From: Paracoccaceae bacterium | Lineage (GTDB): Bacteria > Pseudomonadota > Alphaproteobacteria > Rhodobacterales > Rhodobacteraceae | Length of the DNA: 64,000 nt | Direction of reading: 5' to 3' | Assembly: GCA_033344815.1 (NCBI GenBank) | Contig: JAWPMR010000001.1 | Coordinates: 4,822,136-4,886,135 of the forward strand | Made by a program: the position numbers and the translations under genes | Part shown: piece after piece, positions 9,677-59,069 of the stretch | Position numbering within the stretch: position 1 is the stretch's first letter | Layout of the letters: every line of letters starts with the position of its first letter | Notes under the pieces: generated by a model | Database searches by the model: none | The model's input: only the letters and a program-made list of their open reading frames with translations | Told to the model about the DNA's origin: nothing

Positions 9677-11141
9677 CTAGCGCCCTCGTTTCGGCAGTAT
9701 CGGATGCGGTCTTTCAGGGCGAGTTTTAGCACCAACGGCGTAAAAAAATCTGCTTAGGCCCCGGTGTTTCCCAGATTCTCCAAGGGCTTGCGAGAAACGC
9801 CAGAGCGGGCTCTTGTTTTTCTCATAGGTGCCTCTTGGTTCGGTCTGTTTTGTTAAATTTTCGGCCAGGCGGGCCTTGTCATGGTCGTGCTGTTCGATCT
9901 TTGCTTCATAGCGACGGATCACTGTGGCCTTGCCTGCGGCCATTATCAAATCCAGCAGTTTGTCGATTTCCTTATCGATCTGCGCAATCTGGCGCTTGCT
10001 TTCCCGGATCACAGCTTTTGCCTGATTGGGGTGGGCCTCCCAGATATAGCGGAACATATCGCGAGTGAGCCGCATGCAGGTTTGCTCTGGTTGCAGCGTT
10101 TTGATGATATCACCAACACCATCTTCCAACTGCGCGCGCTTGATGGATTTCCCGTAAGCCTCGCAGCCTTTGGTTTGGCAAAGGTAGTAGGGGTAGAGTT
10201 TGCCTTGCTTGCCCTTGGCAAAAGAGGACCGCAGAGGAACGTCTCAGCAGGTACAGATGGCAATCCCGCGCAACGCAAAGGCGTCTGCGATGTTCTTGCG
10301 CTTCGGGGCCTTGGCGACGCCCGCGCGGCGTTGCTGGACCTTGTCGAAGGTCTCCAGCGAGATGAGGGGCTCATGCTGCGCTTTCATTCAGTGGATGCCA
10401 TATCTTTCTGAACAAATATGGCCGGTGTAGACGGGCCGCGTCAGAATGTCGGTGACACGCTGCTGTTTGACCTCCCCGTACTTGTCGCGTGGAAAGTCGG
10501 GATAGGATTCAAAAAAAGCGCTTAACCCCTGCCTGCGTTTCAAAACGTCCTGAGGCATAGCCTTCGAAAGCCTGTTTGACGATGTCGTCGAAGGGCGGGT
10601 TCTGGAACAGCATCCTACCGCGCCCAGAAACTTTCTTATAAACATACCCGACAGGCGGATTGTGGATCCAATATCCAGATTCCATGCGCGCTGTCATTTT
10701 CTGCCCGACCTGACGGGCGTTTTGCTTGCGCTCAAGCTGTCCTTGCGCGGCGAAGATCGTTTCCACGAATTCGTCCTCCGGCGTTTCATCAAAGGTAAAG
10801 TTCAGACATTCGAGCCTGTCGTTGCGGTCGCGAAAGGCCTGGCGCAGGCGGAAATGAAAGTCGCGGTCACGCGCAAATCGTTTCAGGGCGTCAAAGATGA
10901 CGATGAACTCTTCATCCGGTTGCGCATCCAGAAACGACAAGAGCGCGACCATGCCGTGCCGTTTCACGAAGTCTCCGCCGCCCGTCATCGTGTCGGGGAA
11001 GGCCGCGACAACGTCGTACCCTTTGCTGTGCGCGTATTGGCGACAGCGGGTTTCCTGGGATTCAAGACCGTGCCCGTCCGCCTCCTGTCCCTCGGAAGAC
11101 ACACGGCAATATATCAGCAATTTGGGTTTTTCCGGGTTCAT
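9677..11141 (-). pseudogene. Serine site-specific recombinase (large resolvase type), inactivated
   Basis: The N-terminal resolvase domain begins at the ATG at 11141 and has the catalytic serine in YCRVSSEGQ. It continues through the recombinase domain (ARMESGYWIHNPPVGYVYKK), a zinc-ribbon-like part and a C-terminal coiled-coil part (RYEAKIEQHDHDKARLAENL). Three lesions break it: a frameshift in a seven-base A tract at 10511-10517, an in-frame stop at 10388-10390, and another at 10244-10246. The second stop falls where a zinc-ribbon cysteine would be expected. Joined across the lesions it makes roughly 487 codons, a normal length. Large serine recombinases integrate or excise mobile elements; this copy cannot make a full protein. 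Confidence 0.85.
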
Positions 11142-12698: not shown

Positions 12699-13844
12699 CT
12701 AAGTCTTTTTGGATTGGCTGAGATTTATTGGACCTACTTCGTTAAAAGATGGCACGCCCAGTTGCCCCAAGGCCCGGACCAACTCGAGGTGCAAGATGTC
12801 GAATGCTCTTTGCGCACCAGCCTTACCACCAGCACCGACGCCATAGGCAAAGGCCCGTCCTGCGAAAGCAAAATCAGCTCCAAGCGCCTTCGCCCGCAAC
12901 ATATCAGCGCCGCGGCGTATGCCACTGTCCAGGATGATCGTCATGTCGCCCGCGACGGCGTTTGCGATAGCGGGCAGTGCATCGATTGTGGCCGGGCCAA
13001 AGGCCACCTGACGGCCGCCATGGTTAGACACGATAATACCGTCGCAGCCCAGTTTGGCGCAGGTTTCCGCGTCTTTTGCGTGCAAGATGCCCTTGACGAG
13101 CAAGCGGCCTTTCCAGCGTGCGCGCAGGCGTTTGAGGTCCTCCCATGTGAAGCCCGGCGTGATCAGGGTTTTTTGGACGTCGGCATAGGACGTCGCGCTT
13201 TGCAAAAGATCGGCATAGTTGGCCACATTGGGCGTGCCGTGTTTCAGGCTTGTGAGGGCCCATCGTGGGTTCGCCGCGCATTGTAACATCACATCTGGTG
13301 TAAACCGAAACGGCACTGCAAGCTGGTTGCGAATATCACGGTCGCGCTTGCCCGCAGCGGGGACATCGGCTGTGACCATCAAGGTGGTGTAACCAGCCGC
13401 CTCGGCCCGCGAGATTAGGCCTTCGGTGACATCTGCGTCGCTTGAGACATAAAGCTGAAACCAACCGTTTCCGTCTGCGGCATCAGCCAGCATTTCAAGG
13501 CTGGTAGAGGCAGCAGAACTGGCCACATAGGGTATATTCTGAACCTTGCAAAGCCGCGCCAGCGTCCGGTCGGCACCCGGCCAAAAAGCGTTAAGCATGC
13601 CGATGGGTGCCATGCCAAAAGGGGCGTCGAAGGTTTGCCCGAAAACGGTGGTACGGGTGTCGATTTGGGACACATCCACCATGTAGCGTGGCGTTAGCTC
13701 GACTTCTTCGAACGCCTCAGAGTTTCGGCGCATATTGCGTTCATTTTCCGCACCTCCATCAACCAGGTCGAAGGCAAAACGCGGAATCCGGGCTTTGGAG
13801 CGCAGCCGCAGATCGTCAATAGAGGCCGCGCGTTCCAGCCCCAT
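12699..13844 (-). CDS. FMN-dependent alpha-hydroxy-acid dehydrogenase (L-lactate dehydrogenase type)
   Basis: The 381-residue enzyme belongs to the LldD/glycolate oxidase family, which oxidises L-2-hydroxy acids to 2-keto acids with FMN. Visible signatures are the FMN contact FQLYV near residue 130, VKGIL with Lys251, the catalytic SNHGGRQ with His275 and Arg278, and the phosphate-binding DSGIRRGADMLRAKALGA. The ATG at 13844 overlaps the TGA of the preceding SDR (TGATG), so it is the last gene of the leftward arm. In L-fucose or L-rhamnose diketo pathways the product L-lactate is oxidised by such an enzyme. That substrate is inferred from the neighbours. Confidence 0.88.
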   Translation of the reverse strand: MGLERAASIDDLRLRSKARIPRFAFDLVDGGAENERNMRRNSEAFEEVELTPRYMVDVSQIDTRTTVFGQTFDAPFGMAPIGMLNAFWPGADRTLARLCKVQNIPYVASSAASTSLEMLADAADGNGWFQLYVSSDADVTEGLISRAEAAGYTTLMVTADVPAAGKRDRDIRNQLAVPFRFTPDVMLQCAANPRWALTSLKHGTPNVANYADLLQSATSYADVQKTLITPGFTWEDLKRLRARWKGRLLVKGILHAKDAETCAKLGCDGIIVSNHGGRQVAFGPATIDALPAIANAVAGDMTIILDSGIRRGADMLRAKALGADFAFAGRAFAYGVGAGGKAGAQRAFDILHLELVRALGQLGVPSFNEVGPINLSQSKKT

Positions 13845-14587
13845 CAGATTGACCAGCCGCCATCTATTGCAAAGGACTGCCCCGTGGTGAAGGCCGACAT
13901 ATCCCCTGCCAGATAACACACCATCTCGGCAATCTCCTCTGGCTGCCCAAGGCGCCCCATAGGCTGGCGTTCTTTGAATGCAGCGAGGGCTTTGTCGAAA
14001 TCGCCGGTGGCGCATAGTCGGTCAAGCAAGGAGGGGCTTTGCACCGTGCCCGGGCAGATTGCGTTGCACCGGATGCCGTCCTTGACGAAGTCGGCTGCGA
14101 TGGCCTTGGTCATGCCAATGATCGCCCCTTTTGAGGCCCCTTAGGCAAAGCGGCGTGGCGCGCCTTTCTCGCTTGAGACGATGGAGGCGATGTTGATGAT
14201 CGAGCCGTGCTTGTTGGCCAGCATGCCGGGAAGCACCACTTTGGTGATGCGGTATGTGGCCTTGGCGTTCAGATCAAAGGCGCGGTCCCAAACGCTTTCT
14301 TCGCAATCAAGGATCGTACCATCGTGAACCCATCCCGCGCAGTTGAGAAGGATGTCCACGGATGCGACAGATGCGACGAGCGCCTGAACCGCTTCGGCAT
14401 CCAGAACATCAAGTGCATGCCCCGTGATTTTTTTCGATGTGTCCGCCAGTTCCGCAACCGCAGCACCATCCAGATCAATGGCGATGACCTGTGCGCCGCG
14501 CGCGGCGAGGGCTTCGGCGCTGGCGCGGCCGATGCCTGCACCCGCCGCAGTGATCAGCGCGGTTTTGCCTTCAAGTGATTGTTGCAT
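13844..14587 (-). pseudogene. Short-chain dehydrogenase interrupted by a stop at the catalytic tyrosine codon
   Basis: The frame begins at ATG 14587 with the NAD-binding TAAGAGIG and LNCAG motifs and the catalytic serine region INIAS. It stops at a TAA at 14141-14143. The same frame then continues with GASKGAIIGMTKAIAADF and runs 98 further codons to the normal end FAIDGGWSI at 13844. The TAA sits exactly where the Tyr of the YxxxK active site should be (TAC or TAT to TAA). The reconstructed 247-residue protein resembles the SDRs used as 2-keto-3-deoxy-L-fuconate or 3-hydroxybutyrate dehydrogenases. An internal ATG at 14113 could restart translation but would lack the nucleotide-binding half. 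Confidence 0.88.
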
Positions 14588-14596
14588 GTTTCTCTC

Positions 14597-15361
14597 CTAG
14601 CGGGCGAGCCAACCGCCATCGACGGTTATCACGCTGCCATGGCAATAACTTGCGGCGTCAGACGCCAGAAAAACCGCAGCACCTGCGATTTCGGATGGAT
14701 CGGCAAAGCGGCCCGCGGGAATTCGCTCCAGCAGAGCTTTAGATCGGTCCGGATCGTCACGCAGGGCCTGCGTGTTGTCTGTGGCAGTGTAGCCGGGAGC
14801 GATCGAGTTCACGTTCACCCCATGGGGCGCCCATTCATTGCACAGCGCCTTGGTCAGACCGACAACGGCATGTTTGCTGGACGCATAGGCCGGCACCCGC
14901 AGGCCCCCTTGCGATGCCAGAACGGACGATACGATGATGATCTTGCCCGCGACCTGCGCCACCATGCGTTTGCCCGCCGCTTGGCTTAGCAGCCATACGG
15001 AGTCGAGGTTGACGGACAGTACGCGTCGCCAATCCTCCAGCGGCATGTCCGTGCTGTCTTCGCGGTGGATGATCCCGGCGTTGTTGACGAGAATGTCCAG
15101 CCCGCCCAAGGTGTCGCTGGCAAAGCTTACTACGGCCTCGGCACCGGTTTGATCCATGTTGAAAAAGTCGGCTTGCACGGCCGCACCTTTCACACCCGAC
15201 GCCTCGATCTTCGTCAGGACCTCGTCGGGTTGATGGCTGCGATAGGTCAGCGCCACATCAGCTCCGGCAGCGGCAAGGCCGAGGGCAATGCCCTCGCCGA
15301 TGCCGGTTGCTCCGCCGGTGACCAATGCGCGGCGTCCGGCCAGATCAAACAGGTTAGCCAT
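14597..15361 (-). CDS. Short-chain dehydrogenase similar to KduD
   Basis: The 254-residue SDR has TGGATGIG for NAD(P) binding, LVNNAG, Ser145, and the YASSK active site (Tyr159, Lys163). The C-terminal half (SIAPGYTATDNTQALR, RIPAGRFADPSEI, VDGGWLAR) closely follows 2-dehydro-3-deoxy-D-gluconate 5-dehydrogenase, KduD. A role on a 2-keto-3-deoxy sugar acid is therefore likely, with the exact substrate unknown. It sits 9 bases upstream of the interrupted SDR and one base from the M24 gene on the same strand, within the leftward operon. Confidence 0.85.
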   Translation of the reverse strand: MANLFDLAGRRALVTGGATGIGEGIALGLAAAGADVALTYRSHQPDEVLTKIEASGVKGAAVQADFFNMDQTGAEAVVSFASDTLGGLDILVNNAGIIHREDSTDMPLEDWRRVLSVNLDSVWLLSQAAGKRMVAQVAGKIIIVSSVLASQGGLRVPAYASSKHAVVGLTKALCNEWAPHGVNVNSIAPGYTATDNTQALRDDPDRSKALLERIPAGRFADPSEIAGAAVFLASDAASYCHGSVITVDGGWLAR

Positions 15362-15362
15362 G

Positions 15363-16673
15363 TCAGTACCGGTTCGCGATTGGCAGTTCTTCGGCAGGGA
15401 AGAGGCTGATCACCTCGCAGCCGGTTTCTGTCACCACAACCTCTTCCTCGATCCGCGCGGCGGAATAGCCGTCTGTTGCGGGGCAGTAAGTTTCCAAAGC
15501 GAACACCATGCCGGTCTGAATCTCCATCGGGTGATCAAGGCTGACCGCGCGGCTGATAATCGGGCGTTCGTGCAGGGCAAGGCCCAAACCGTGGCCAAAC
15601 TGCAAGCCAAAGGCAGCGTCTTCGTTTGGAAAGCCCAGGGATTCCGCAGTTGGCCAAACCTCGGCCACCTTGTCGGTGGTCACGCCCGGTTTGATCATCG
15701 CGATGGAGGCGTCGATCCATTCGCGCGCCTTGACGTAGGCATCATTTTGCGAGGGCGTGGCCCGTCCCACATTGAACGTCCGGTAATAGCATGTCCGGTA
15801 CCCCTGATAGCTCTGCAGGATGTCGAAAAATGCCTGGTCGCCGGGCCTTATCAGCCGGTCGGTAAAGTTGTGCGGGTGCGGATTGCAACGCTCACCCGAG
15901 ATCGCGTTGACCGCTTCCACATCATCTGATCCCATCTCGTAGAGCATCTTGTTGGACAACGCGACGATATCGTTTTCGCGCACTCCAGGTTTCAGCTCTT
16001 CATAGATCATGTGATAGACGCCATCGACCATGGATGCGGCCTGCGTCAAAAGCTGGATTTCGTCCCAGTTCTTGATCTCACGTGCGGCCAGCATGATCTG
16101 CTGTCCGTCGACCACGTTGATCCCTTCCTCAAGCAGAGCATGGAACATGGCGGTTTCGGCATAGTCCACGCCCACCGGCATGTCGGCCATTCCTGCGTCC
16201 TTAATGAGTTGGGCAATCATCTTGGCGTATTTGCGCATCAGGCCGAACTCGGGCGGGATGGTGCCACGCATGCCCACAACGCCAGCAAGGCAATGATCGG
16301 GTTCCAGCCAGTCGGAATAGCGCTTGTGGTGTACTGCAGCCGAACCGAAATCCCAAACGTAAGGACTGTCGTCGCCCGTCAGGAGGCAAAACCGGCACAT
16401 CTTGTCGCGCTCCCATTCGCCGATCTTGGTGGCAGAGACGTAGCGGATGTTGTTCACATCAAAAAGCAACAGCGTGCCTGCATCGGACGCCTGAAGCGCC
16501 TGCCGCGTGCGGGCGAGCCGGTAGCGGCGCAGTCGGTCGTGGTCCACCCGGCGTTCGAAATCTACCGTTGTATGTCCCCAGGCGGGCAGTCTGTCGCGCC
16601 ACTCCCAGTTGGGTTCAAGGTCTTGCGGCGTAAGCAGGTTCGGCATGAGTGCGTTTCCTGGACGTTCGGACAT
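15363..16673 (-). CDS. M24 family metallopeptidase-like protein with altered metal site
   Basis: The 436-residue protein has the creatinase N-terminal domain (about 50-180) and the pita-bread M24 domain (about 195-430). I start at 16673, behind AGGGAGA, rather than at an ATG eleven codons upstream. The first metal Asp (Asp284, in FFDILQSYQGY) is present, as are His361 in GHGLG, the His in LHERP, Glu394 and the Glu cluster near 409-411. The second metal Asp is replaced by Cys295 in RTCYYRTF. Ordinary proline peptidases need both aspartates, so a changed metal or a non-peptidase activity, as in DddP and creatinase, is possible. It lies between SDR genes of a sugar-type operon. Substrate unknown. 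Confidence 0.85.
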   Translation of the reverse strand: MSERPGNALMPNLLTPQDLEPNWEWRDRLPAWGHTTVDFERRVDHDRLRRYRLARTRQALQASDAGTLLLFDVNNIRYVSATKIGEWERDKMCRFCLLTGDDSPYVWDFGSAAVHHKRYSDWLEPDHCLAGVVGMRGTIPPEFGLMRKYAKMIAQLIKDAGMADMPVGVDYAETAMFHALLEEGINVVDGQQIMLAAREIKNWDEIQLLTQAASMVDGVYHMIYEELKPGVRENDIVALSNKMLYEMGSDDVEAVNAISGERCNPHPHNFTDRLIRPGDQAFFDILQSYQGYRTCYYRTFNVGRATPSQNDAYVKAREWIDASIAMIKPGVTTDKVAEVWPTAESLGFPNEDAAFGLQFGHGLGLALHERPIISRAVSLDHPMEIQTGMVFALETYCPATDGYSAARIEEEVVVTETGCEVISLFPAEELPIANRY

Positions 16674-16733
16674 AGTATTCTCCCTGGAGGACGTTGCCCC
16701 TGTCAAATATGAGTAAAATCGGTGTGATCGTCG

Positions 16734-17543
16734 TTACTGGATGCACCAACCACCATCGATGTGGATCATTTGGCCGGTCATGTAGTCACTGTCGTCGGAT
16801 GCTAGAAAAGACGCGGTACCGACGATGTCATTGGGGTAGGATACACGTTTGATCTGCAACGCGTCGCGCACTATGTCTTCGTAGGCTTGGCCTTCTTTCT
16901 CCTTGAAGCCGATATCCACAAGATCTTTGTCAAGTTGTTCCCAGAGCGGGGTCACAACAACGCCCGGCGCGTAGCCGTTCACAGTGATGCCATGTTCTGC
17001 CAGACCGAGGGCACCACAATGTGTCAAAGCAAGGCAGCCGTACTTAGAGGTGCAGTACACCGTCACGTCCACCAGCGGTTTGCGGGACGCAATGGAGCCG
17101 ACGTTGATCAGCTTGTAGGGGTGGCCTTCCATTGGCCCTTGGGCAATCATCTGTCGGGCGGTTTCCTGCATGCCCAGCCACATGGCCTTCGTGTTGACGT
17201 TCATGATCATGTCCCAGTTGTCCTCATCAATATCCATGAAGAACCGGGGCTTGTTCAGGCCTGCATTAAACAGACCTACATTGATCGATCCGAAGGCCTC
17301 GACTGTGGCGGCCACGGCGGCGGCGTTATCTTTGCGCTTGGTGACATCCATTTTGACGGCAATCGCTTTGCCGTTGTCGGCGGCGTTGATCTCGTCTGCC
17401 ACGGTCTGCGCCATGTCGAGGTCGAGATCACCGATACAGACGTTGGCGCCTTGTTCGGAAAACGACCGCGCGTTGGCTTCGCCCATGCCGCGGGCAGCAC
17501 CGGTGATCAGAATATTTTTACCTTTGAGGCGGTTGGGGTCCAT
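16734..17543 (-). CDS. Short-chain dehydrogenase (polyol or sugar dehydrogenase type)
   Basis: The 269-residue SDR has TGAARGMG, an FNAG motif in place of the usual NNAG, the catalytic serine in NVGSIASR, the YCTSK active site and the C-terminal IHIDGGWC. It starts at ATG 17543 behind a GGAGGAGACAACC ribosome binding site. It is clearly a paralogue of the SDR at 20656-21447, sharing the pattern MNVNTKAMWLGMQETARQMIAQG. Two diverged copies therefore sit in opposite arms of the locus. Family members oxidise sorbitol, galactitol or sugar lactols. Which substrate applies here cannot be read from sequence. Confidence 0.87.
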   Translation of the reverse strand: MDPNRLKGKNILITGAARGMGEANARSFSEQGANVCIGDLDLDMAQTVADEINAADNGKAIAVKMDVTKRKDNAAAVAATVEAFGSINVGLFNAGLNKPRFFMDIDEDNWDMIMNVNTKAMWLGMQETARQMIAQGPMEGHPYKLINVGSIASRKPLVDVTVYCTSKYGCLALTHCGALGLAEHGITVNGYAPGVVVTPLWEQLDKDLVDIGFKEKEGQAYEDIVRDALQIKRVSYPNDIVGTASFLASDDSDYMTGQMIHIDGGWCIQ

Positions 17544-17561: not shown

Positions 17562-19403
17562 TCACGTAGACCTATGCTTTTGAATGACGGCGTCAGCTCT
17601 CTCCTGGGCGCGACGCAATGTTTCAGACGGGGGGGTCAGCCCGCGCAGCATGTCGTGGAATTCCTCACCGCAAATCTGGATGATCTCGGTGATCTCGGGC
17701 ACGGGCGGACGCGGCCAGAATTGCAGCTCGTCGCGCCATGACATTGCATCCACGGCCTCGAAGATGGCGGATAAGCGGCGGACGTCCGGGTCGGCACCGA
17801 CTGAATAGCGCGGATTGGTTCGGCTACCGTTTTGGATATACAGCTTTTGTGCCTCGGGTGATGTGAAAACGCGCAGCGCCTCGACGGCCGCAGGCACGCG
17901 ATCTGGCGGCAGATTGGAAGGAATACCCATGATATAGCCGCCCACAGGTGCAATCTGGCTGGCACCGGGGCCAGCGGGATGAGGCAGATACCCGGTCTGA
18001 CCATCGGCGGGTGAATCCTCGTCCAGCTCAAAATACGGGGCGAGCAGAGTGTAACCATAGGCCATCGCGATACGGCCCTCCGCATAGGGCCGCACACGTT
18101 CATACCAAGACATCGACAGGATATCGGGCGGCGAATATTCCATCAGTTCCAGCAGGAATTCGGCGGCACGCAGGCCCGCTTCGGTGTCGATCGTGACGTT
18201 GTAGCGCCGATCTGCCAGATGGCTCGTGGCAAAGCCGCCGGCGACCGGGGGCAGATCAAGGACAGGCTGACCGAAATCGGCAAGTGTCATCAGAACGGTG
18301 TGACCAAGTGCCGTCCCGCGCGCGGCGTTCCATGCGATGCCGTGTCGGCCGCGTTGTGGATCGTGTAACGCCTTGGCAGCGGCAAGCAGCGCGTCGGTTG
18401 TCGCTGGCGGCTCCAGCCCGGCCTCGGCAAACATGTCCTTGCGATAAAACAGAAGTTCCGGTGTGGTCTGGGCTGGCAATCCGTAAGGTTTACCGCCCCA
18501 ATGCGCGGCCTCCCAGCCCGCAGTGTGAAAATCGGCAGGATCGACGCTCACAATCTCCATCACCTCGTCCAGCGGCATCAGGATGCCGCGCTCAGCGAAG
18601 TCCCCGACCCAAGGCAAGTCAACGGCAACGATGTCATAGCGGCTGACTTCGCGCTCTGCATTGCGCACAGCCTCCTCGTGCAGGCGGTCGATGGAAAATG
18701 CGCGTTGATGGATTTGCGCGCCGATGGACTGCTCAAATTGCCGCTTGAGGTTATCCATCACCATGAAGGTAGGGTCGCCATGGACCAACACGCGCAAGCC
18801 GCCCGCAAGGTTCAATGGCTCGGTCAGCACCTGAAGTGGTGGGATCGACTTGGCGTCCATATAGGATCCGCCAAAGTAGTAGTCCTGGGTTTCTCCGAGC
18901 GTCTGTTCGCCGCCGAAACGGCTTGCAGCCAGACGGCCGACGCGGCTCGACAGTTGCATCCATTGATTCAGCAGCTTTTCGCTTGGGTGCATGGAAAAGC
19001 TTTTGCCGGTCTTGGTGCGCGGGCGCTGTTCGATTAGGCCATCGCTGAGCATTTCCTTTAGACGACGGTTCGCCGTGGCGTAGGGCGCGCGGCTGGCGCC
19101 AATCAGAGCGGTCGCGGTGATCAGGCGACCCTCAAGGTGTCGACGCATTAAGAGAAGTGTCATCCGCAGGTTTGGATTCGGGGCGGAAAGGTTCACCACG
19201 TCTTCCAGTTCATCACATAAGGACTCCAGAAAAGCGATGATCTGAAGCATCTCGGTTTTGGCCCTGGGGGGCACTAACCCGGCTGTTTTACGTCCGCTCA
19301 TTGCATTCATGGGACTGTTTTTTTCTTTCTGGATGGAATTGAAGTTGGTGCGGCGCGCCCCACCGGCCAAAACCTTCAATTTGGAAGAATTGGATTTACC
19401 CAT
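17562..19403 (-). CDS. Winged-helix regulator fused to an ABC solute-binding-protein domain
   Basis: The predicted 613-residue protein has no signal peptide. Residues about 80-145 look like a MarR-type winged helix: TLLLMRRHLEGRLITATALIG, then ATANRRLKEMLSDGLIEQRP, then a wing TKTGKSFSMHP. From about residue 203 to the end it reads as a family 1 extracellular solute-binding protein, with DLPWVGDFAERGILMPLDEV, KPYGLPAQTTPELLFYRKDMFAEAGLEPP and FTSPEAQKLYIQNGSRTNPR. This suggests a cytosolic one-component regulator using a maltose-binding-type fold as sensor. It sits at the divergent centre of the locus. The start is uncertain; an ATG at 19310 is an alternative that removes 31 poorly ordered residues. 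Confidence 0.8.
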   Translation of the reverse strand: MGKSNSSKLKVLAGGARRTNFNSIQKEKNSPMNAMSGRKTAGLVPPRAKTEMLQIIAFLESLCDELEDVVNLSAPNPNLRMTLLLMRRHLEGRLITATALIGASRAPYATANRRLKEMLSDGLIEQRPRTKTGKSFSMHPSEKLLNQWMQLSSRVGRLAASRFGGEQTLGETQDYYFGGSYMDAKSIPPLQVLTEPLNLAGGLRVLVHGDPTFMVMDNLKRQFEQSIGAQIHQRAFSIDRLHEEAVRNAEREVSRYDIVAVDLPWVGDFAERGILMPLDEVMEIVSVDPADFHTAGWEAAHWGGKPYGLPAQTTPELLFYRKDMFAEAGLEPPATTDALLAAAKALHDPQRGRHGIAWNAARGTALGHTVLMTLADFGQPVLDLPPVAGGFATSHLADRRYNVTIDTEAGLRAAEFLLELMEYSPPDILSMSWYERVRPYAEGRIAMAYGYTLLAPYFELDEDSPADGQTGYLPHPAGPGASQIAPVGGYIMGIPSNLPPDRVPAAVEALRVFTSPEAQKLYIQNGSRTNPRYSVGADPDVRRLSAIFEAVDAMSWRDELQFWPRPPVPEITEIIQICGEEFHDMLRGLTPPSETLRRAQERADAVIQKHRST

Positions 19404-19458
19404 TGGTGATCGCCTTCATAAATTGCCAACGCAGATGGGAAAACGTACCGCAAAAATG

Positions 19459-19493
19459 TCCATATTGAATATAAAGATATCCAAAATGAATAT
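19459..19493 (+). promoter_or_regulatory. Two 14-bp direct repeats, 21 bp apart, in the divergent promoter region
   Basis: Repeats at 19459-19472 and 19480-19493 agree at 12 of 14 positions (consensus TCCAwAwTGAATAT). Their start-to-start distance is 21 bp, two helical turns, as expected for a dimeric regulator bound on one face. A weaker copy on the other strand overlaps the start of the regulator gene near 19371-19384. They lie in the 216-bp gap between the regulator and the transporter operon and are the best operator candidate. Binding is inferred. Confidence 0.5.
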
Positions 19494-19619
19494 TTTTTGT
19501 GACGCACCGGTTGAGGCAACCCCACATGGTCAATGCAGTTTGATTGATCATGATTCCTCGACTGTTGATGGGAATCAAATAAACTGAATTCTGGAAGTTT
19601 CCTTGGGAGGAAATCAAAA

Positions 19620-20576
19620 ATGAAAGTTCGTACACTTCTCGCAGCGACTACCGCAACGGCGACGATAACCTTTGCAGGTATCGCCTCCGCCGAAACCATG
19701 ACTATCGGCATCACGCAGAACAATGTGGGGGTCGACAGCTACCAGACCACCTATGAGAAGGCCTTCATCGCCGCGGCCGAAGCCAACAGTGACGTTGAAG
19801 TCGTCGTGTTGGACGCCGGTGGTGACGTTGCGCGCCAGATTGCTCAGATGGAAGACCTCATCCAGCAGGAAGTGGATGCCATCATCATCTGGCCAACAAA
19901 CGGCGAGGCTGTGATCCCTGCTGTTCGCAAGGCGCATCAGGCTGATATCCCGGTTGTCGTTACCAACTCAAACATCGCTGAAGCTGGCTTTGATTTCGTC
20001 TCTTCCTTCTCCGGTCCTGACAACATCACTCAGGGCATCCGCTCTGCCGAGATCATGTGTGACCGCTTCAAGGCCATGGGAATCGAAGACGAAGCAAAGG
20101 TTGTCCACATCACAGGCCAGCCAGGCTACACGACGGCCATCGAACGCGCCAAGGGCTTCAACGACCGTCTGCCCGAAGTCTGCCCGAACGTTGAGCAGAT
20201 CGACGAGCAACCGGGTGACTGGAACCGCGAAAAGTCGCAGCAGGTCATGGAGGCCTTCCTCGTGAAGTATGACGACATCGACGGTGTCTATTCTGGCGAT
20301 GACAACATGGGTGTTGGCGCAATGAATGCCGCCGTGGCCGCTGGGCGCGAGGGTATTACCTTCGTCGGCGCTACCAACTTCGCAGTGGGCTATGAAGCAA
20401 TGGCCGCGGGTACTTACTGGGGGTCAATCTACCAGTCGCCTGTTGATGACGCAAAAGCGGCGTTGAAAACCGCGATTGACCTGCTCAACGGGGAAGAACT
20501 GCCGTTCCTGAACTACTTCGATACACCGAAGATCACTCAGGACAACATGGGCGAGTTTACCAAGCCGGTATTCTAA
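19620..20576 (+). CDS. Sugar ABC transporter substrate-binding protein (ribose type)
   Basis: The 318-residue precursor has a signal peptide of about 24 residues ending at IASAET. The mature part is a family 4 periplasmic binding protein (RbsB/LacI fold): MTIGITQNNVGVDSYQTTYEKAF at its start, DAIIIWPTN, PVVVTNSNI, GQPGYTTAIERAKGF, DGVYSGDDNMGVGAM and the hinge TFVGATN. A GGGAGG box precedes the ATG. It is the first gene of the rightward arm and delivers ligand to the two permeases and ATPase downstream. The ligand is probably a sugar or polyol, not determinable here. Confidence 0.93.
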   Translation: MKVRTLLAATTATATITFAGIASAETMTIGITQNNVGVDSYQTTYEKAFIAAAEANSDVEVVVLDAGGDVARQIAQMEDLIQQEVDAIIIWPTNGEAVIPAVRKAHQADIPVVVTNSNIAEAGFDFVSSFSGPDNITQGIRSAEIMCDRFKAMGIEDEAKVVHITGQPGYTTAIERAKGFNDRLPEVCPNVEQIDEQPGDWNREKSQQVMEAFLVKYDDIDGVYSGDDNMGVGAMNAAVAAGREGITFVGATNFAVGYEAMAAGTYWGSIYQSPVDDAKAALKTAIDLLNGEELPFLNYFDTPKITQDNMGEFTKPVF

Positions 20577-20593
20577 GATCCCAACTTTGGGTA

Positions 20594-20609
20594 GGGGGCT
20601 ACGGCCCCC
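20594..20609 (+). promoter_or_regulatory. Stable hairpin with cTACGg tetraloop after the binding-protein gene
   Basis: A 6-bp G/C stem (20594-20599 with 20604-20609) closes a TACG tetraloop of the extra-stable C(UNCG)G class. No T run follows, so it is not an ordinary terminator. Hairpins at this place in ABC operons often protect or separate the abundant binding-protein message from the downstream genes; this role is inferred. Confidence 0.5.
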
Positions 20610-20655
20610 GTCCCCTTACGCATTCCAAAATGGGTTCAGGTATGGGAGAGGACCA

Positions 20656-21447
20656 ATGGGTCGAGTCTCTGGTCGCTCGTGCATTGTCACAGGTGCCGCG
20701 CAAGGTATCGGGCGGGCAATTGCCGAGGCGCTTTTAGACGAAGGAGCAAGCGTTTGTTTCGCCGATATCAATGGCGATAAGGTCGCTGAGGTCGCAGACC
20801 TGAACCTGAAAACACACAGCGATGGCGACGTAACACATGCGCAGGTTGATGTGACCGACCGCTCGGCGGTACGCGCCATGATTGACCATACTGTCGCGTC
20901 GTTTGGCAAGCTGGATGTAAAGTTCAACAACGCAGGTGTAAACCGGCCCATGAACTTTATGGATGTCACCGAAGACAACTGGCATTTCATTATGGGGGTC
21001 AACGGGTTGGGCTGTATGATCGGCATGCAGGAGGCGGCCCGCCAGATGATCGCGCAGGGCACAGGCGGTAAGATCATCAACACCGCCTCAGTCGCGAGCC
21101 GTCAGGGTTTTGACAATGTGGCCCCGTATTGTGCCAGCAAATTTGCCGTCGTATCGCTGACTCAGTCAGGCGCGCGCGCTTTGGCCAAGCATGACATAAC
21201 GGTCACGGGTTTTGCCCCCGGCGTGGTTGCGACCGAGATGTGGGAGCAGGTCGATAAGGACTTGATGGCGATCGGTGCTGCTGAACGGCCCGGTCAGGCG
21301 ATGGAGGAGTTTTCGTCTGAAATCTTGCGCGGGCGCGTTGCCGTGCCGCAAGACATCATTGGAACGACCACTTTTCTGGCAGCGCCGGAAAGCGACTACA
21401 TGACAGGTCAGGTCGTGATGATCGACGGGGGCATGACGCTGGTTTGA
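20656..21447 (+). CDS. Short-chain dehydrogenase (sorbitol/galactitol dehydrogenase type)
   Basis: The 263-residue SDR starts at ATG 20656 behind AGAGGA. It carries TGAAQGIG, a DINGD acidic cofactor end that favours NAD, FNNAG, the YCASK active site, and VMIDGGMTL at the C terminus. It is a paralogue of the SDR at 16734-17543; both share MGVNGLGCMIGMQEAARQMI-type spacing and the ATEMWEQVDKDL/TPLWEQLDKDL stretch. It lies between the binding protein and the first permease, so it probably acts on the imported compound or an early product. Confidence 0.88.
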   Translation: MGRVSGRSCIVTGAAQGIGRAIAEALLDEGASVCFADINGDKVAEVADLNLKTHSDGDVTHAQVDVTDRSAVRAMIDHTVASFGKLDVKFNNAGVNRPMNFMDVTEDNWHFIMGVNGLGCMIGMQEAARQMIAQGTGGKIINTASVASRQGFDNVAPYCASKFAVVSLTQSGARALAKHDITVTGFAPGVVATEMWEQVDKDLMAIGAAERPGQAMEEFSSEILRGRVAVPQDIIGTTTFLAAPESDYMTGQVVMIDGGMTLV

Positions 21448-21530
21448 TCTGACATGCCGGGTGAGGGAATTCGGCAGGTTGGATGGGAGATAAACGAACC
21501 GCCGTCAGGCGCGGTCCTAGGGAGGGAACA

Positions 21531-22505
21531 ATGGCTGAGTTTACGAGGCAGGATATCGGAGAGTTGCTGGCGAAACAGGGCATCCTGATCGCCTTTGCCC
21601 TTTTCATAATCGGGTTCACAATTGCCAACCCGAAATTTCTGACCCTCGACAATTTTGAGAACGTGGTGAGGTCTTCGGCGATTCTGGGTGTGATGGCGCT
21701 GGGGGTGACCTTCGTCGTGATCAGCGGCAATCTCGATCTCTCTGTGGGGTCGATGATGTCATTTTCGACCATCGTTGTACTTGATCTTCACGACAAGATA
21801 GGACCGACCCTTGCGATCCCTGCCATGTTTGCGATGACTTTATGCCTTGGGGCGTTCATCGGGTTTCTCGTCGGTTACCTGAAGCTTAATTCACTGATTG
21901 TGACGTTGGGGATGCTTTCGGCCATTCACGGACTGACGCTGACCTATTCAGGTGGCAAGAACATGGACATCGCAGACAAGGAAGGCACCTGGTTTGATAT
22001 CTTTGGTCAAGGGAGTGTCTTTGGGATTCAGACGCCGATACTAATTTTCTTCGCATTGGCTGCTTTGCTGGGCATCATCTTGTCAAAAACGCCGTTTGGC
22101 CGAAAAGTATACGCGGTAGGCGGTAACGGTACGGCAGCGACCTTCTCCGGCATAAATCGGGCCCGCGTGGTTTTCATTTGCTACCTTATGAGTGCGTTCT
22201 GCGTGGCCACGGCCGGTCTGATGCAGGCCAGCCGTTCCATGGGGTCGCAGAACACCGTAGGACAAGGGCTGGAGCTTGAAGTGCTTGCAGCGGTCATTCT
22301 TGGCGGGGCATCGCTGCTGGGGGGATCGGGGACGATGTTCAAGACGGTGATCGGCGTGCTGATCCTCGGGTTTATTCAGAATGGTCTTTTGCTGGTCGGG
22401 CTTGATTTCTCCGTACAATACGTCGTGACCTGGGTCATCATCATCCTAGCAGTCTGGCTCGATATTGCGGCCAAGCGCGGCAAGCTTATGTCGCCGATCG
22501 CGTAA
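21531..22505 (+). CDS. ABC transporter permease, ribose/xylose (BPD_transp_2) family
   Basis: The 324-residue protein starts at ATG 21531 after GGAGGG. It has about eight to ten hydrophobic segments and the family motifs NLDLSVGSMMSF (periplasmic turn) and AVILGGASLLGGSGT (the coupling-helix region). It forms an inner-membrane importer with the second permease and the ATPase. The next gene begins 13 bases after its stop. Confidence 0.93.
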   Translation: MAEFTRQDIGELLAKQGILIAFALFIIGFTIANPKFLTLDNFENVVRSSAILGVMALGVTFVVISGNLDLSVGSMMSFSTIVVLDLHDKIGPTLAIPAMFAMTLCLGAFIGFLVGYLKLNSLIVTLGMLSAIHGLTLTYSGGKNMDIADKEGTWFDIFGQGSVFGIQTPILIFFALAALLGIILSKTPFGRKVYAVGGNGTAATFSGINRARVVFICYLMSAFCVATAGLMQASRSMGSQNTVGQGLELEVLAAVILGGASLLGGSGTMFKTVIGVLILGFIQNGLLLVGLDFSVQYVVTWVIIILAVWLDIAAKRGKLMSPIA

Positions 22506-22518
22506 GGGAGGCAGGAAG

Positions 22519-23520
22519 ATGCAAGCTGGAAAACTCTCAAGATATCTCAAGGGCGGCGCCATCTGGGGCTTTATCGTCTTTGAATTGATCTTCTTCTCTG
22601 TGGCCGGCGAGTTCTTCTCCGTCAGCGACAAGGCCTTTATGGACGGCGACAACATGCTGTTGCTGCTCAAGCAGTCGGCGCCGATCGGTATCATCGCCAT
22701 GGGCATGACCATCGTCATGGTCAACGGCAATATCGACCTGTCAGTCGGGGCGATATACGCGATTTGCGCCATTGTCCTATTGGATTCGATGACATGGGCA
22801 ATGTTTGAAGGGCTCGGAAACTGGGTCATTCCCGTGGCCTGGTGCCTGGCTCTGCTGACCGGTGTGGTTTTTGGTGCGATCAACGGATTGATTGTGTGGA
22901 AGACCGGGGTGGACGCCTTTATCGTGACGCTTGGTTCTATGCTGGGCTTTCGCGGATTGGTTTTCATGTATAACGGCGAGCAACCGACAAGCCATCTCAA
23001 TTGGACGCTGGTCGATTTCGCCGAAGCACAATTTCTTGGTCTTCACACTGCAACATGGTTCCTGCTGATCGTTACAGCGGCGATCTGGTTTCTGATGAAC
23101 CGCACAGTCCATGGCCGCAACGCCTATGCCATCGGTAACAACCGCGAAGCGGCGGTCAATGCGGGCATCCGTGTCGGTCCGCATATGATGATTAATTTCA
23201 TGATTATCGGTTTTTTGGCCGCGCTCTCCGCGGTGGTATTTTATTCGGAATCCGGATCGGTGAACCCCAACGACGGCCAGCTTTACGAATTATGGGTGAT
23301 CACTGCCGTCGTGCTGGGAGGCACCAAGCTGACTGGTGGGGCGGGCTCGATCATCTCGACCTTCGGGGGCGTGATTGCGATTCAGCTTTTGCGCAAGGGC
23401 TTGGCCCATATCGGCGCAGATACATCGACCGTCAACCTTGTGATCGGTCTGATTTTGATTGCTGTGCTCTTCCTTGACCGGCAGCTGAACGTGAAAGGCA
23501 AAGAGGAGTTGAAGGTATGA
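22519..23520 (+). CDS. ABC transporter permease, second subunit
   Basis: The 333-residue product starts at ATG 22519 after a GGAGGCAGGAAG box. It has the same family motifs as its neighbour: NGNIDLSVGAIYA, GVDAFIVTLGSMLGFRGLVF and AVVLGGTKLTGGAGSI. It is distinct enough from the first permease to form a heterodimeric channel. Its last four bases overlap the ATPase start (ATGA), so the two are translationally coupled. Confidence 0.93.
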   Translation: MQAGKLSRYLKGGAIWGFIVFELIFFSVAGEFFSVSDKAFMDGDNMLLLLKQSAPIGIIAMGMTIVMVNGNIDLSVGAIYAICAIVLLDSMTWAMFEGLGNWVIPVAWCLALLTGVVFGAINGLIVWKTGVDAFIVTLGSMLGFRGLVFMYNGEQPTSHLNWTLVDFAEAQFLGLHTATWFLLIVTAAIWFLMNRTVHGRNAYAIGNNREAAVNAGIRVGPHMMINFMIIGFLAALSAVVFYSESGSVNPNDGQLYELWVITAVVLGGTKLTGGAGSIISTFGGVIAIQLLRKGLAHIGADTSTVNLVIGLILIAVLFLDRQLNVKGKEELKV

Positions 23521-25046
23521 CCGGGACGATTGATCTAACGACCCCCGCCCCTGTCCTGCGTCTTGAAGGGATCGTAAAGACCTTTCCCGGTGTACGGGCC
23601 CTTGATGGCGTCTCGCTGACCATTATGCCCGGCGAAGTCCATGCCTTGATGGGTGAAAATGGTGCTGGAAAATCCACCCTGATGAAGGTGCTTGGCGGTA
23701 TTCACCAACCCGACGAAGGTCAGATCATTGTGGAGGAGAAACCGGTGGTCATGTCCGGCCCATTGGAAGCGAAAGCCAAGGGTATCGTATTCATTCACCA
23801 GGAACTCAGCCTGGCAGATGAGCTCAGTGTGGCGGAGAACATCTACCTCGGAGAATTGCCACGCAAGCGTTTTGGGTTGGTGGACTGGTCCGAACTCGAG
23901 ACCAAGACCAACGCGATCCTCGAAAGGCTCAAGGTCAGTTTCAATGCCAAGACCCGCGTTGGCGACCTTTCGATTGCCAACCAGCAGATGGTCGAAATCG
24001 CACGAGCTCTGACCGTCGACGCCAAGGCCGTGATTTTTGACGAGCCGACAGCCTCGCTGACCGACGCGGAAAAAGTGGTTTTGTTCGAGGTCATCTCTGA
24101 CTTGCAACAACAGCGCGTGGGCATCGCCTATATTTCGCACCGGATGGAAGAGATATTCAAGATCACCGACCGGATCAGCGTTTTGCGCGATGGCCAATAT
24201 CAGGGCACGGTCAATACCGCCGATACGAACGAAGAAGGCGTGACCCAGATGATGATCGGGCGCAAGCTTGACCTCAGTCGCAACGAGAGCCATCACGAAC
24301 TGGGCGATGTCGCTCTCGAAGTGCACGAATTGAGCTGTGGCCATTTGTTTCAGGATGTCAGCTTCGAGGTGCGACGCGGCGAGGTCGTCGGTTTTTACGG
24401 TCTTGTCGGGGCAGGGCGGACGGAAATCGCCGAAACACTGTTTGGCCTTCGAAACCCGTCATCCGGCTCGATCCTGATGGACGGCGAAGAGGTAAGAATT
24501 CACTCACCTTATGACGCGATCGAGCGGGGCATATCGCTGGTGCCAGAAGATCGGAAGGAGCAGGGGATAGTTCTGGGGATGAACTGCCGGGATAACATGA
24601 CCCTGCCGCAGGTCGATGACCTCAAATCCGGCCCCTTCGTTGCCGACGGTGCCGAGATCGCAATCTTCGATCAATACCGCGACAAGCTCGACATCAGGAC
24701 ACCGGGCTGGAAACAGCTCGTGGGCAATCTCTCGGGTGGCAACCAGCAAAAGATTGTCATCGGAAAATGGCTGTCTATGCGGCCCAACGTGCTGATCGTA
24801 GACGAACCCACACGCGGCATCGACGTGGGCTCTAAGGCCGAGATTCACAATCTGCTCCGCGACTTGGCATCGCAGGGCTATGCGGTGATCGTGATCAGCT
24901 CGGAAATGCCAGAGGTGCTGCATGTGGCCGACCGCATAGTGGCGATGTACTCGGGCCGGATTATGCGGACTTTCACCTCTGAAGAAGTGACCGAGGAAAA
25001 CCTGATAGCCGCGATTTCGGGCTTGGAAACCGAAAAGGTGGCTTGA
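23517..25046 (+). CDS. Sugar ABC transporter ATP-binding protein (RbsA/MglA type)
   Basis: The 509-residue protein has two ATPase halves. The first has Walker A GENGAGKST near residue 43, the signature-like SIANQQMVEIARAL and Walker B VIFDEPTASL. The second has a degenerate Walker A (GLVGAGRTE), the signature LSGGNQQK and Walker B LIVDEPTRGID. This asymmetry is normal for the ribose/galactose class. It energises uptake through the two permeases. Its TGA overlaps the next gene's ATG. Confidence 0.95.
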   Translation: MTGTIDLTTPAPVLRLEGIVKTFPGVRALDGVSLTIMPGEVHALMGENGAGKSTLMKVLGGIHQPDEGQIIVEEKPVVMSGPLEAKAKGIVFIHQELSLADELSVAENIYLGELPRKRFGLVDWSELETKTNAILERLKVSFNAKTRVGDLSIANQQMVEIARALTVDAKAVIFDEPTASLTDAEKVVLFEVISDLQQQRVGIAYISHRMEEIFKITDRISVLRDGQYQGTVNTADTNEEGVTQMMIGRKLDLSRNESHHELGDVALEVHELSCGHLFQDVSFEVRRGEVVGFYGLVGAGRTEIAETLFGLRNPSSGSILMDGEEVRIHSPYDAIERGISLVPEDRKEQGIVLGMNCRDNMTLPQVDDLKSGPFVADGAEIAIFDQYRDKLDIRTPGWKQLVGNLSGGNQQKIVIGKWLSMRPNVLIVDEPTRGIDVGSKAEIHNLLRDLASQGYAVIVISSEMPEVLHVADRIVAMYSGRIMRTFTSEEVTEENLIAAISGLETEKVA

Positions 25047-25912
25047 TGCGGGTGGGTTTTGTCGGTCTGGGCCGTATGGGCGCACATATGGCACGCAATC
25101 TGTTCCGTGCAGGGCATGACGTGACGCTCTGGAACCGCTCGCCTTGCAAGGCCCAAGATCTGGCCGCAGAGTTGGGTTGTGCCTTGGCGGACAGTCCCCG
25201 GGCGCTGTCTAATGCGGCGGAGGTGGTCGTGACCATGTTGGCCCATGATCTATCTTCCGAAGCAGTGCATGGCGGCCCGGACGGGCTTTGCGCCGGGTCG
25301 GCGCGGACCTATGTCGAGATGGGTACGATGAGCCCGGATCACATCGCATGGCTGGCAGAGGAAGCCCCTCTGGGCTCCCGTGTGATCGACGCGCCGGTTT
25401 CAGGTGCTACGCAGGCAGCCGCCGATGGACAGCTGATGATCATGGCGGGCTGCACGCCAGAAGACGCCTTGCCGCTAACCCCGGTCTTCGAGGCAATGGG
25501 CAAGAAAACACTCTGCCTTGGTCAGGCAGGTAACGCTGCGGTGATGAAATTGGCGGTCAACTCGCTGATCCACGGCATCAACCAGACCCTGGCCGAAGCG
25601 ATGACGCTTGCACAGGCAGCGGGGATCGCACCGGAAACGGCTTTCGACGTGATCGAGGCCTCTGCTGCCTGTGCGCCGATGCTCAAATACCGGCGTCCAC
25701 TTTATCTGAACGAGGCAGATCACGACGTGACCTTCACCGTGTCGCTGGCGCGCAAGGACATGGAGGTTACGGCACAACTTGCAGATCGGCTGGGCACCAA
25801 GGTGCCGCAAGGCCGCGCTACTCTGGCCAAATTGGTCGAGGCTGAAACCGCAGGTTTTGGCACCCGCGACATGGCATCGATGTTGGCCTTTATGCGACAG
25901 GACACGTTATGA
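25046..25912 (+). CDS. NAD(P)-dependent beta-hydroxyacid dehydrogenase family protein
   Basis: The 288-residue enzyme belongs to the 3-hydroxyisobutyrate/tartronate-semialdehyde reductase family. It has VGFVGLGRMGAHMARNL for the dinucleotide, DAPVSGATQAA for substrate binding, and the catalytic lysine in GNAAVMKLAVNS. It starts at ATG 25046, overlapping the ATPase stop (TGATG). Its stop overlaps the ThuA start. It probably reduces or oxidises a hydroxy-acid intermediate. A relative, also of this family, is encoded at 56338. Confidence 0.87.
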   Translation: MRVGFVGLGRMGAHMARNLFRAGHDVTLWNRSPCKAQDLAAELGCALADSPRALSNAAEVVVTMLAHDLSSEAVHGGPDGLCAGSARTYVEMGTMSPDHIAWLAEEAPLGSRVIDAPVSGATQAAADGQLMIMAGCTPEDALPLTPVFEAMGKKTLCLGQAGNAAVMKLAVNSLIHGINQTLAEAMTLAQAAGIAPETAFDVIEASAACAPMLKYRRPLYLNEADHDVTFTVSLARKDMEVTAQLADRLGTKVPQGRATLAKLVEAETAGFGTRDMASMLAFMRQDTL

Positions 25913-26613
25913 AAGCTGCTTTATTTGTCGGTGGATGGGAAGGCCATACGCCAACCCATTTTGCCGAATGGTACAAGGACCTGCTCGAAACCAACGGCTG
26001 CACGGTTGATATCTATGAGACGCTTGAACCCCTGGCGCAGCCCGAAAACTTGTCCGATGTTGATTTGATCACGCCGATCTGGTCTTCCGCCCGGTCAGGT
26101 CACCGCGAAGAATTCGGTAATATGACCAAACCGCAAGAAGACGGTCTGCTGAAGTTGATCGCCGATGGATGCGGAATCGCGGGATGGCACGGGCACATGG
26201 GGGACGCCTTCCGCGACCGCCCGACCTATCATTTTCTGATCGGGGGGCAATTTGTGGCACATCCGCCTGGTTGGCCCGACAATCTTCAGCCGCGCGAAGA
26301 TTACGTCGACTACGACGTCACCATCTGCAAACCCGACGATCCGATTGTGCAGGGCATCAAAAGTTTCCGCCTGACGACCGAACAATATTACATGCTTGTC
26401 GATCCTTCCAACGATGTTTTGGCAACAACGACATTTTCGGGCGATCACCTGTGGTGGATTGAAGGCACTGTGATCCCTGTTGTCTGGAAACGTCGTTGGG
26501 ACAAGGGTCGCGTTTTTTATTGCTCTATCGGTCATGAACTGGACGACCTAAAAGTGCCGCAAGTCACTGAAATCATTCGGCGCGGCGCGTTGTGGGCCGC
26601 GCGCGGGAACTGA
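25909..26613 (+). CDS. ThuA domain protein
   Basis: The 234-residue protein has the glutamine-amidotransferase-like ThuA fold: MKAALFVGGWEGHTPTHFAEWY, DLITPIWSS, GCGIAGWHGHMGDAFRD, HPPGWP and the C-terminal GRVFYCSIGHELDD. Related proteins were found in trehalose utilisation and, more widely, in sugar keto-reduction or isomerisation clusters. The biochemical role is unsettled. The ATG overlaps the previous stop (ATGA), so it belongs to the rightward operon. Confidence 0.88.
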   Translation: MKAALFVGGWEGHTPTHFAEWYKDLLETNGCTVDIYETLEPLAQPENLSDVDLITPIWSSARSGHREEFGNMTKPQEDGLLKLIADGCGIAGWHGHMGDAFRDRPTYHFLIGGQFVAHPPGWPDNLQPREDYVDYDVTICKPDDPIVQGIKSFRLTTEQYYMLVDPSNDVLATTTFSGDHLWWIEGTVIPVVWKRRWDKGRVFYCSIGHELDDLKVPQVTEIIRRGALWAARGN

Positions 26614-58947: not shown

Positions 58948-59069
58948 GTGTAATTTGTCCAGTTTGGATGACACTTCATGAGTGCCACGGATTTTTCCGC
59001 AAGCCAAGGGTGGGAATCGTCGAAGGCCAAGGCTAAGAGAGGACGTCATAACAACAAAAGTCCTCCCCC

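Follow-up and report, generated by a model that had tools for sequence, protein, structure and literature searches.

Within a 64,000-nucleotide stretch of Paracoccaceae bacterium DNA (assembly GCA_033344815.1, contig JAWPMR010000001.1, positions 4,822,136 to 4,886,135 of the forward strand; hereafter the window, in whose numbering positions are given), the minus-strand gene at 17562-19403 very probably encodes a DNA-binding regulator of its own locus with a sensor of the solute-binding-protein (SBP) type. In the mechanism that we consider probable, the protein would be a cytoplasmic one-component switch, in which a winged helix-turn-helix (wHTH) binds tandem palindromes in the adjoining intergenic region, an SBP_bac_1 domain acts as the sensor, a divergent ABC transporter operon is activated, and the regulator's own gene is repressed. 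The chance that activation of the uptake operon is indeed coupled to autorepression is roughly even. We infer dimerisation, the class of ligand (sugar- or polyol-like), and the sense of the control (activation versus repression).

The sensor is the more easily recognised half of the protein. Searched against Pfam at E<=1, the full 613-residue protein gives only SBP_bac_1 (E 1e-26, 95.1 bits against a cut-off of 26, residues 256-520) and the overlapping SBP_bac_8 (8e-21). A sequence search of the PDB has 5iai as its best match (E 7.7e-28, over residues 204-603) and the trehalose/maltose-binding protein 1eu8 as the next (3.7e-23). The same two structures, in the same order, are the top Foldseek matches of the full-length AlphaFold model (for 5iai, E 4.1e-25 and a template-modelling (TM) score on the target of 0.80), in which both domains are visible (mean predicted local distance difference test (pLDDT) score 77.3, predicted TM score 0.68; the other four models have pLDDT 53-68). 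Thus the full family 1 solute-binding domain that a reading of the letters (the original prediction) had placed at about residues 203-600 is borne out, with limits of about 203-609; the label 'maltose-type' given to it there fits the fold and the nearest structures, but does not designate a known ligand. Matches to NCBIfam all fall far below cut-off (MalE is the best), so that no curated NCBIfam model names the protein.

The N-terminal part forms, in the AlphaFold model of residues 46-182, a helix-helix-helix-recognition helix-wing-long helix arrangement with a core pLDDT of about 90-97. A Foldseek search with this model returned seven matches at E<=0.001, all of them chains of 3e6m (titled MarR family), PefR, and MexR, the last two of which we take to be MarR-family members; model and Foldseek (TM about 0.5) agree on the winged-helix fold with flanking helices that marks MarR proteins. 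When a profile of the N-terminal region was compared with the PDB, a MarR structure was found at E 0.0026. (The next match, a kinesin/EB chimera at E 0.0057, covers another stretch, positions 91-131, and was taken as a chance helical match.) Scanned alone against Pfam at E<=1, the N-terminal part matches HTH_24, MarR_2, and PUB_1; at the same threshold MarR_2 is found in 19 members of a 23-member family set (best 2.2e-5) and HTH_IclR in 10 (best 2.3e-5). In a Paraburkholderia homologue labelled 'hypothetical protein' (L223, 25% identical), both HTH_IclR (31 vs 22 bits) and SBP_bac_1 (68.5 vs 26) exceed their Pfam cut-offs. Residues T110 and R113 of the predicted recognition helix (T-x-x-R) are invariant across the 23-member alignment. 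The winged helix expected at about residues 80-145 is therefore recovered, as a helix-turn-helix (HTH) core at 77-140, and the structure prediction and Pfam search that the original prediction proposed as a check find a helix-turn-helix in the N-terminal part and SBP_bac_1 above its cut-off. DNA-binding and sensor domains are combined in one protein, as in one-component regulators, with the cytoplasmic location judged from sequence only. Related HTH domains also occur outside the fusion family, in 22 alphaproteobacterial loci (among L120-L141; 30-52 bits). By eye, many of these proteins (though not L136 and L140, which are short) have a receiver-like domain ahead of the wHTH, so that the wHTH looks like a shuffled module.

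The NCBI annotation implies something else, namely an exported binding protein of the ordinary kind that has extra residues at its N-terminus, and 26 of the 34 copies found in plasmid records are indeed labelled 'extracellular solute-binding protein'. This is barely credible for a protein that carries a winged helix and in which no signal peptide is recognised by hydropathy (no signal predictor was applied), as had been read from the letters: the hydropathy peak within the first 60 residues (13-residue window) is 0.75, whereas nine ordinary family 1 binding proteins from this genome, a few of them with uncertain starts, peak at 1.35-2.03. Export signals in homologues, which the original prediction would have held against a regulatory role, were not seen either, and in at least two relatives, L073 and L076, the reading frame starts so close to helix 1 (at the helix or a few residues ahead of it) that a signal peptide would not fit in. 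A full-length profile run over 398 genomes of the phylum (E<=1e-30, three candidates scored per genome) found 35 places in 30 genomes, of which 8, in 6 genomes, are full-length fusions at 750-938 bits; the other 27 reach at most 170 bits and are partial matches that begin at profile position 140 or later. In addition, the adjacent permeases are BPD_transp_2, which is not the permease type usually served by family 1 binding proteins, and the RbsC/RbsA-type transporter next to the gene already has a Peripla_BP_4 protein of its own, so the regulator does not qualify as the protein that serves it.

The predicted operator emerged from phylogenetic footprinting of 80 intergenic sequences, one from the window and the rest from 79 loci (L205, which lacks the divergent gene, was dropped). 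Every one of the 80 contains two 17-bp palindromes, ATATCCAnnnTGGATAT, with the consensus ATATCCATAATGGATAT, exactly 21 bp apart. An unconstrained search places the best two sites 21 apart in 55 of the 80. The constrained pair scores 21.9-45.9 throughout, compared with -1.9 or less in 400 shuffles, and the lowest pair score of 22.9 compares with a best of 4.3 among 400 Markov sequences; a spacing of 21 gives a mean score of 36.8, and the runner-up among spacings 17-31 gives 2.3. With held-out halves (the window being included in both test sets), 41/41 and 40/40 tests exceeded every shuffle of their own fold, and the second-best spacing, 34, corresponds to a third site. The 38-mers that span the operator are distinct in 79 of the 80 sequences. 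A possible fourth operator within the start of the coding sequence is suggested by second-best spacings of 82-85 and 103-106, but exact half-sites in that stretch are scarce, with at most 3 at any offset.

The palindromes stand in a fixed relation to putative promoter elements. On the transporter side, a CAnnnT motif is conserved (C in 78, A in 76, and T in 75 of the 80 sequences); if this is taken as a -10 element, the ABC operon would start near 19537 (+), which puts sites 1 and 2 at roughly -52 and -73, and no -35 element is obvious by eye. On the regulator side, a 17-bp spacer from TANNNT puts the predicted -35 element of the regulator gene inside site 2, and the third site over its predicted start, near 19435 (-). 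The working of the switch may then be pictured as follows. MarR-like winged helices, presumably as dimers, would bind 19456-19472 and 19477-19493, sites that share one face of the DNA and are offset by two helical turns. As the sensor, the SBP_bac_1 domain would bind the compound taken up, or a product formed early in its breakdown, and close around it, and this closure would alter the DNA-bound dimer. The bound form would most likely aid RNA polymerase at the divergent ABC operon, because such a promoter geometry (sites near -52 and -73, a conserved -10, no obvious -35) is usual for activation. The regulator would repress its own gene, because site 2 covers the predicted -35 and the third site lies over the predicted start.

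The same fusion might instead be a plain repressor, which covers both promoters and is released by its ligand in the manner of LacI or a classical MarR repressor. This is possible, if rather doubtful: it calls upon the same domains, operator, and synteny, and an operator that sits between divergent genes with site 2 over the regulator's predicted -35 would suit it, but sites 52 and 73 bp or so upstream of the ABC-operon start lie off the core promoter, a position more usual for activation, and their fixed distance to a -10 without an obvious -35 also speaks against it.

Footprinting reveals conserved DNA and not its binder, and so the operator could belong to another, unlinked regulator, with its position between the divergent genes a coincidence. 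That is quite unlikely given the synteny (79 of 80 loci) and the finding of like palindromes beside relatives only 31-47% identical, at different operons. For this comparison, a matrix trained solely on the orthologous regions was applied to 22 relatives of less than 60% identity, two of which (L038 and L064) were dropped as probable orthologues. Palindromes like TGTCCAnnnTGGACA lie upstream of 12 of the remaining 20 (score at least 9.5, a post hoc threshold, within 460 bp), all 12 at the identities just given, and 9 of the 20 have a site scoring at least 11.5. Background rates at 9.5 run from 2.2% in the remainder of the window to 7.0% in loci of the same genome, and at 11.5 from 0.7 to 4.6%; the background set includes four stretches fetched because they hold sites. 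Counted by relatedness group (assigned by eye), 8 of 11 groups have a site (P 8e-8 at a 7% background). In L066, L077, and L080, where the gene follows other genes, the sites stand before the putative operon, as a pair 20 bp apart in L066; no site of at least 11.5 was found within 15 kb in L078 and L079, and in L045 and L065 the scan was confined to the 460 bp. Among homologues from further genera, that of Sinorhizobium (32%) has TTATCCGAAACGGATAT ahead of its operon, that of Skermanella has three sites, and that of Paraburkholderia has one, scoring 11.3. A common operator in distant relatives at different operons points to a common DNA-binding domain, and we strongly infer, from these comparisons, that the regulator binds the tandem palindromes.

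Within the same genome, a pattern search that allowed one mismatch gave 46 matches. (A reversed-pattern control gave 2, but has a different base make-up and was not used.) The sole perfect site besides the tandem pair, at 3109737, lies within an 816-aa open reading frame (ORF); of three one-mismatch sites inspected, two are in ORFs and one (L228) is outside the listed ORFs. On the sites inspected, a wider regulon in this genome was rejected. With up to two mismatches the window has 7 matches, where 5.2 are expected, so single loose matches are meaningless. One operator-like site in the window, at 58955-58971 (score 16.0), lies inside a 403-aa ORF (57949-59160, minus strand), and an internal Met 8-24 nt downstream of it may be where that gene really starts; the site itself is likely a product of chance.

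It is also conceivable that the solute-binding domain is no more than the vestige of a sensor and now acts as a scaffold for the dimer or gives another protein a surface to dock on. Domains of this kind can lose binding; however, the sensor half is the better conserved part of the regulator (67-79% identity to the window protein, compared with 44-62% for the HTH half, in the first nine of 22 aligned relatives), and we regard a lost sensor as unlikely. For a sensor that still binds, a sugar-like ligand seems likely from the sugar-type genes that neighbor the regulator loci. Within the part of an SBP survey of 49 model strains that concerns this family, sugars are predicted for nearly all SBP_bac_1 members (PMC9602780).

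Several observations weigh against the proposed switch. By itself the HTH of the regulator stays under the Pfam cut-offs (MarR_2, 14.1 bits against 27; HTH_24, 13.7 against 21.9), and the full-length AlphaFold model is only moderate (mean pLDDT 53-77 over the five models). Hydropathy fails to separate all members of the family from exported proteins: in 70 relatives whose starts were trimmed to near helix 1, the median is 1.19 and the highest value 1.66, with 2 of 70 above 1.6, because helix 1 is itself fairly hydrophobic. The window's own copy of the third site is degenerate, and the absence of a -35 element at the ABC operon was judged by eye. Among the 20 distant relatives, 8 have no site inside 460 bp (one of them, L074, offers only 107 bp to scan), the region upstream of the Agrobacterium homologue contains no operator-like site, and the 9.5 threshold was picked after the scores had been seen.

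The features of the regulator and its locus are collected below. The counts of neighboring genes refer to 80 fetched loci, all close orthologues, some of which end early at contig borders.

Coordinates of the regulator gene, its control elements, and the neighboring genes in the window
Feature	Position	Strand	Evidence or remark
Regulator gene, 613 aa	17562..19403	-	45-residue leader, MarR-like winged helix, linker, SBP_bac_1 domain
N-terminal DNA-binding domain, residues 47-163 (wHTH core 77-140, long flanking helices)	18915..19265	-	AlphaFold, Foldseek, Pfam on family members
Predicted recognition helix, residues 108-120	19044..19082	-	Alignment and AlphaFold model
SBP_bac_1 sensor domain, residues 203-609	17577..18797	-	Pfam, PDB sequence search, Foldseek 5iai
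GAAGG, probable ribosome-binding site of regulator	19413..19417	-	Sequence
Third, degenerate site position	19422..19438	.	TGRAYAT half-site exact in 41/80
Predicted -10 element TACGTT of regulator gene	19442..19447	-	TANNNT at fixed offset in 60/80; putative promoter role
Predicted operator site 2, palindrome ATGTCCATATTGAATAT	19456..19472	.	21 bp from site 1; phylogenetic footprint 80/80
Predicted operator site 1, palindrome ATATCCAAAATGAATAT	19477..19493	.	Phylogenetic footprint 80/80
Predicted -10 element CATGGT of divergent ABC operon	19525..19530	+	31 nt from site 1, fixed distance; putative promoter role
Predicted divergent target, family 4 sugar-type binding protein Peripla_BP_4	19620..20576	+	Pfam E 9.5e-53; opposite strand in 79/80 loci
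SDR oxidoreductase, divergent operon	20587..21447	+	71/80 loci
ABC permease BPD_transp_2	21483..22505	+	73/80 loci
ABC permease BPD_transp_2	22465..23520	+	74/80 loci
ABC ATPase, RbsA-like	23517..25046	+	73/80 loci
3-hydroxyisobutyrate-dehydrogenase-like oxidoreductase	25043..25912	+	23/80 loci
ThuA-domain protein	25909..26613	+	25/80 loci
SDR oxidoreductase downstream of regulator	16734..17543	-	78/80 loci
M24 (creatinase/prolidase-like) enzyme	15363..16706	-	75/80 loci
SDR oxidoreductase, KduD-like	14597..15361	-	42/80 loci
FMN-dependent alpha-hydroxyacid dehydrogenase	12699..14015	-	29/80 loci

The regulator gene begins with an ATG, and GAAGG lies 9 nt 5' of it. A later start codon in the leader, where MNAM recurs in relatives, was rejected because this ribosome-binding site precedes the first ATG. 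The gene lies, as the original prediction had it, at the divergent center of a sugar-type locus whose transporter uses a family 4 binding protein. The M24 enzyme of the locus scores 118 bits with the model of the dimethylsulfoniopropionate lyase DddP, compared with a cut-off of 600, and its reaction may reveal the pathway substrate. A further SDR gene at 14141-14587 (minus strand) is only 148 aa long because of an in-frame stop, past which the frame stays open; all 29 orthologues measured have 247 aa, and the gene is likely a pseudogene in this strain or the product of a sequencing error. About 1.5 kb past the last named catabolic gene lies a resolvase-family recombinase (10509-11141, minus strand; Pfam Resolvase, E 5.9e-20), which, together with a plasmid location in Phaeobacter, hints at mobility of the locus. 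In Phaeobacter the locus is on a 61-kb plasmid and is followed by an alpha-ketoacid dehydrogenase set; in Skermanella (46% identity) the divergent ABC operon terminates with ThuA and amidohydrolase genes; and in Paraburkholderia the neighbors are a sugar ABC binding protein, a hydroxypyruvate isomerase family gene, and an inositol dehydrogenase. Other distant relatives adjoin other operons again, with a GMC oxidoreductase and ribose-type ABC genes in L067 and L070, M24 and E1 dehydrogenase genes in L066, BPD_transp_1 permeases in L068, and a Peripla_BP_6 protein in L072.

The fusion is widespread. A scan of named genomes gave 478 candidates, and the best 80 of the 478, which were kept, all contain it and match from query position 21 or earlier; by title they are mostly Rhodobacteraceae, with Stappia, Hoeflea, Chelativorans, and others. 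The survey of domain order suggested by the original prediction thus found the same order in every relative kept. In the same family, relatives occur in 37 of 198 genomes (E<=1e-60), one of the 37 having a 127-residue fragment only, and the N-terminus is missing at a few places. A search with the N-terminal 187 aa finds matches (E<=1e-6) in 54 of the 292 genomes of the order, and all of the listed places but one (320 aa) sit in open frames of at least 582 aa. Several genomes have three copies; that of the window has one. Plasmid records add 34 relatives, from Phaeobacter (12, 83.7% identity) to Rhizobium, Skermanella, and Paraburkholderia, while phage records gave no match to the regulator. 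Three genomes of about 1.4 Mb (L117-L119), a notably small size, retain the fusion in a frame of 564-587 aa. When 23 fusions and 21 ordinary binding proteins, both sets having been collected by similarity, are placed in one tree, the fusions form one side of a single branch (support 100/99). On balance, we lean toward a large, uncharacterised, and systematically misannotated family, which would have arisen by a one-time recruitment of a family 1 domain, joined to a wHTH module shared with response-regulator-like proteins, and through duplication would have reached many sugar-type catabolic loci in Alpha- and Betaproteobacteria. Its members would share the operator code TGTCCAnnnTGGACA and variants, and the substrate would be read inside the cell by one fold and outside by the other fold, that of the transporter.

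The closest known system is SgrR of Escherichia coli, which acts in glucose-phosphate stress. SgrR has an N-terminal winged helix and a C-terminal solute-binding-protein domain, and sgrS is divergent from its gene. Its Pfam domains are SgrR_N and SBP_bac_5, so that the solute-binding family differs from that of the regulator, in which neither domain is found by Pfam at E<=1. According to the passages on SgrR in two reports, it is believed to be activated by a small molecule at its C-terminus, and it activates sgrS and represses itself (PMC7786190; PMC4021124). The promoter geometry of the regulator would be compatible with a like role as activator and autorepressor, but SgrR drives a small RNA, whereas the predicted target here is an ABC operon. 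With the MarR family, the regulator has in common the fold and topology of the DNA-binding part and the palindromic operators. MarR proteins, however, have about 140-150 aa and bind their ligand near the dimer interface, whereas the regulator carries an attached 400-residue sensor of transporter type and misses the Pfam cut-off. The whole binding fold is common to the regulator, 5iai (Agrobacterium radiobacter Arad_9887), and 1eu8; proteins of the latter type are exported for transport, whereas the regulator is without a recognisable export signal, is fused to a wHTH, and stands apart in the tree.

LacI regulators use a periplasmic-binding-protein fold as an intracellular sensor, a likeness of the regulator to the LacI/GalR and LysR families; but LacI has a type I fold and LysR a smaller type II domain, each with another class of HTH, and no match to the LacI HTH with Peripla_BP_1/3 or to LysR was found in the regulator (Pfam, E<=1). 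Membership in the SgrR, MarR, or LacI family was rejected, since the diagnostic Pfam domains are absent or below cut-off. The sensor role of the type II fold in LysR regulators is described in the relevant part of a survey of regulator architectures (PMC5882156), and, more generally, regulators that sense through a binding-protein domain are already known, as stated in a portion of the SBP survey (PMC9602780). The original prediction called the family 1 fold inside the cell unusual; a binding-protein domain as an intracellular sensor is uncommon but, given SgrR and LysR, not unprecedented. No description of a wHTH-SBP_bac_1 regulator, its operator, or this locus was found in the open-access literature (most subscription journals lay outside the search), and the fusion is apparently new and uncharacterised. 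To the earlier reading of the sequence are now added the operator, the family, and the likely activator/autorepressor arrangement.

If this picture is true, the regulator would be a second case, beside SgrR, of a transporter binding protein turned gene regulator, and new sugar-responsive switches could usefully be built on a clamshell sensor that is joined in nature to a small winged helix. Many of the genes that are at present catalogued with transport proteins would encode transcription regulators. Consequently, the tallies of binding proteins and of regulators for marine and soil Alphaproteobacteria would shift, and the operators would be ready for use in regulon prediction.

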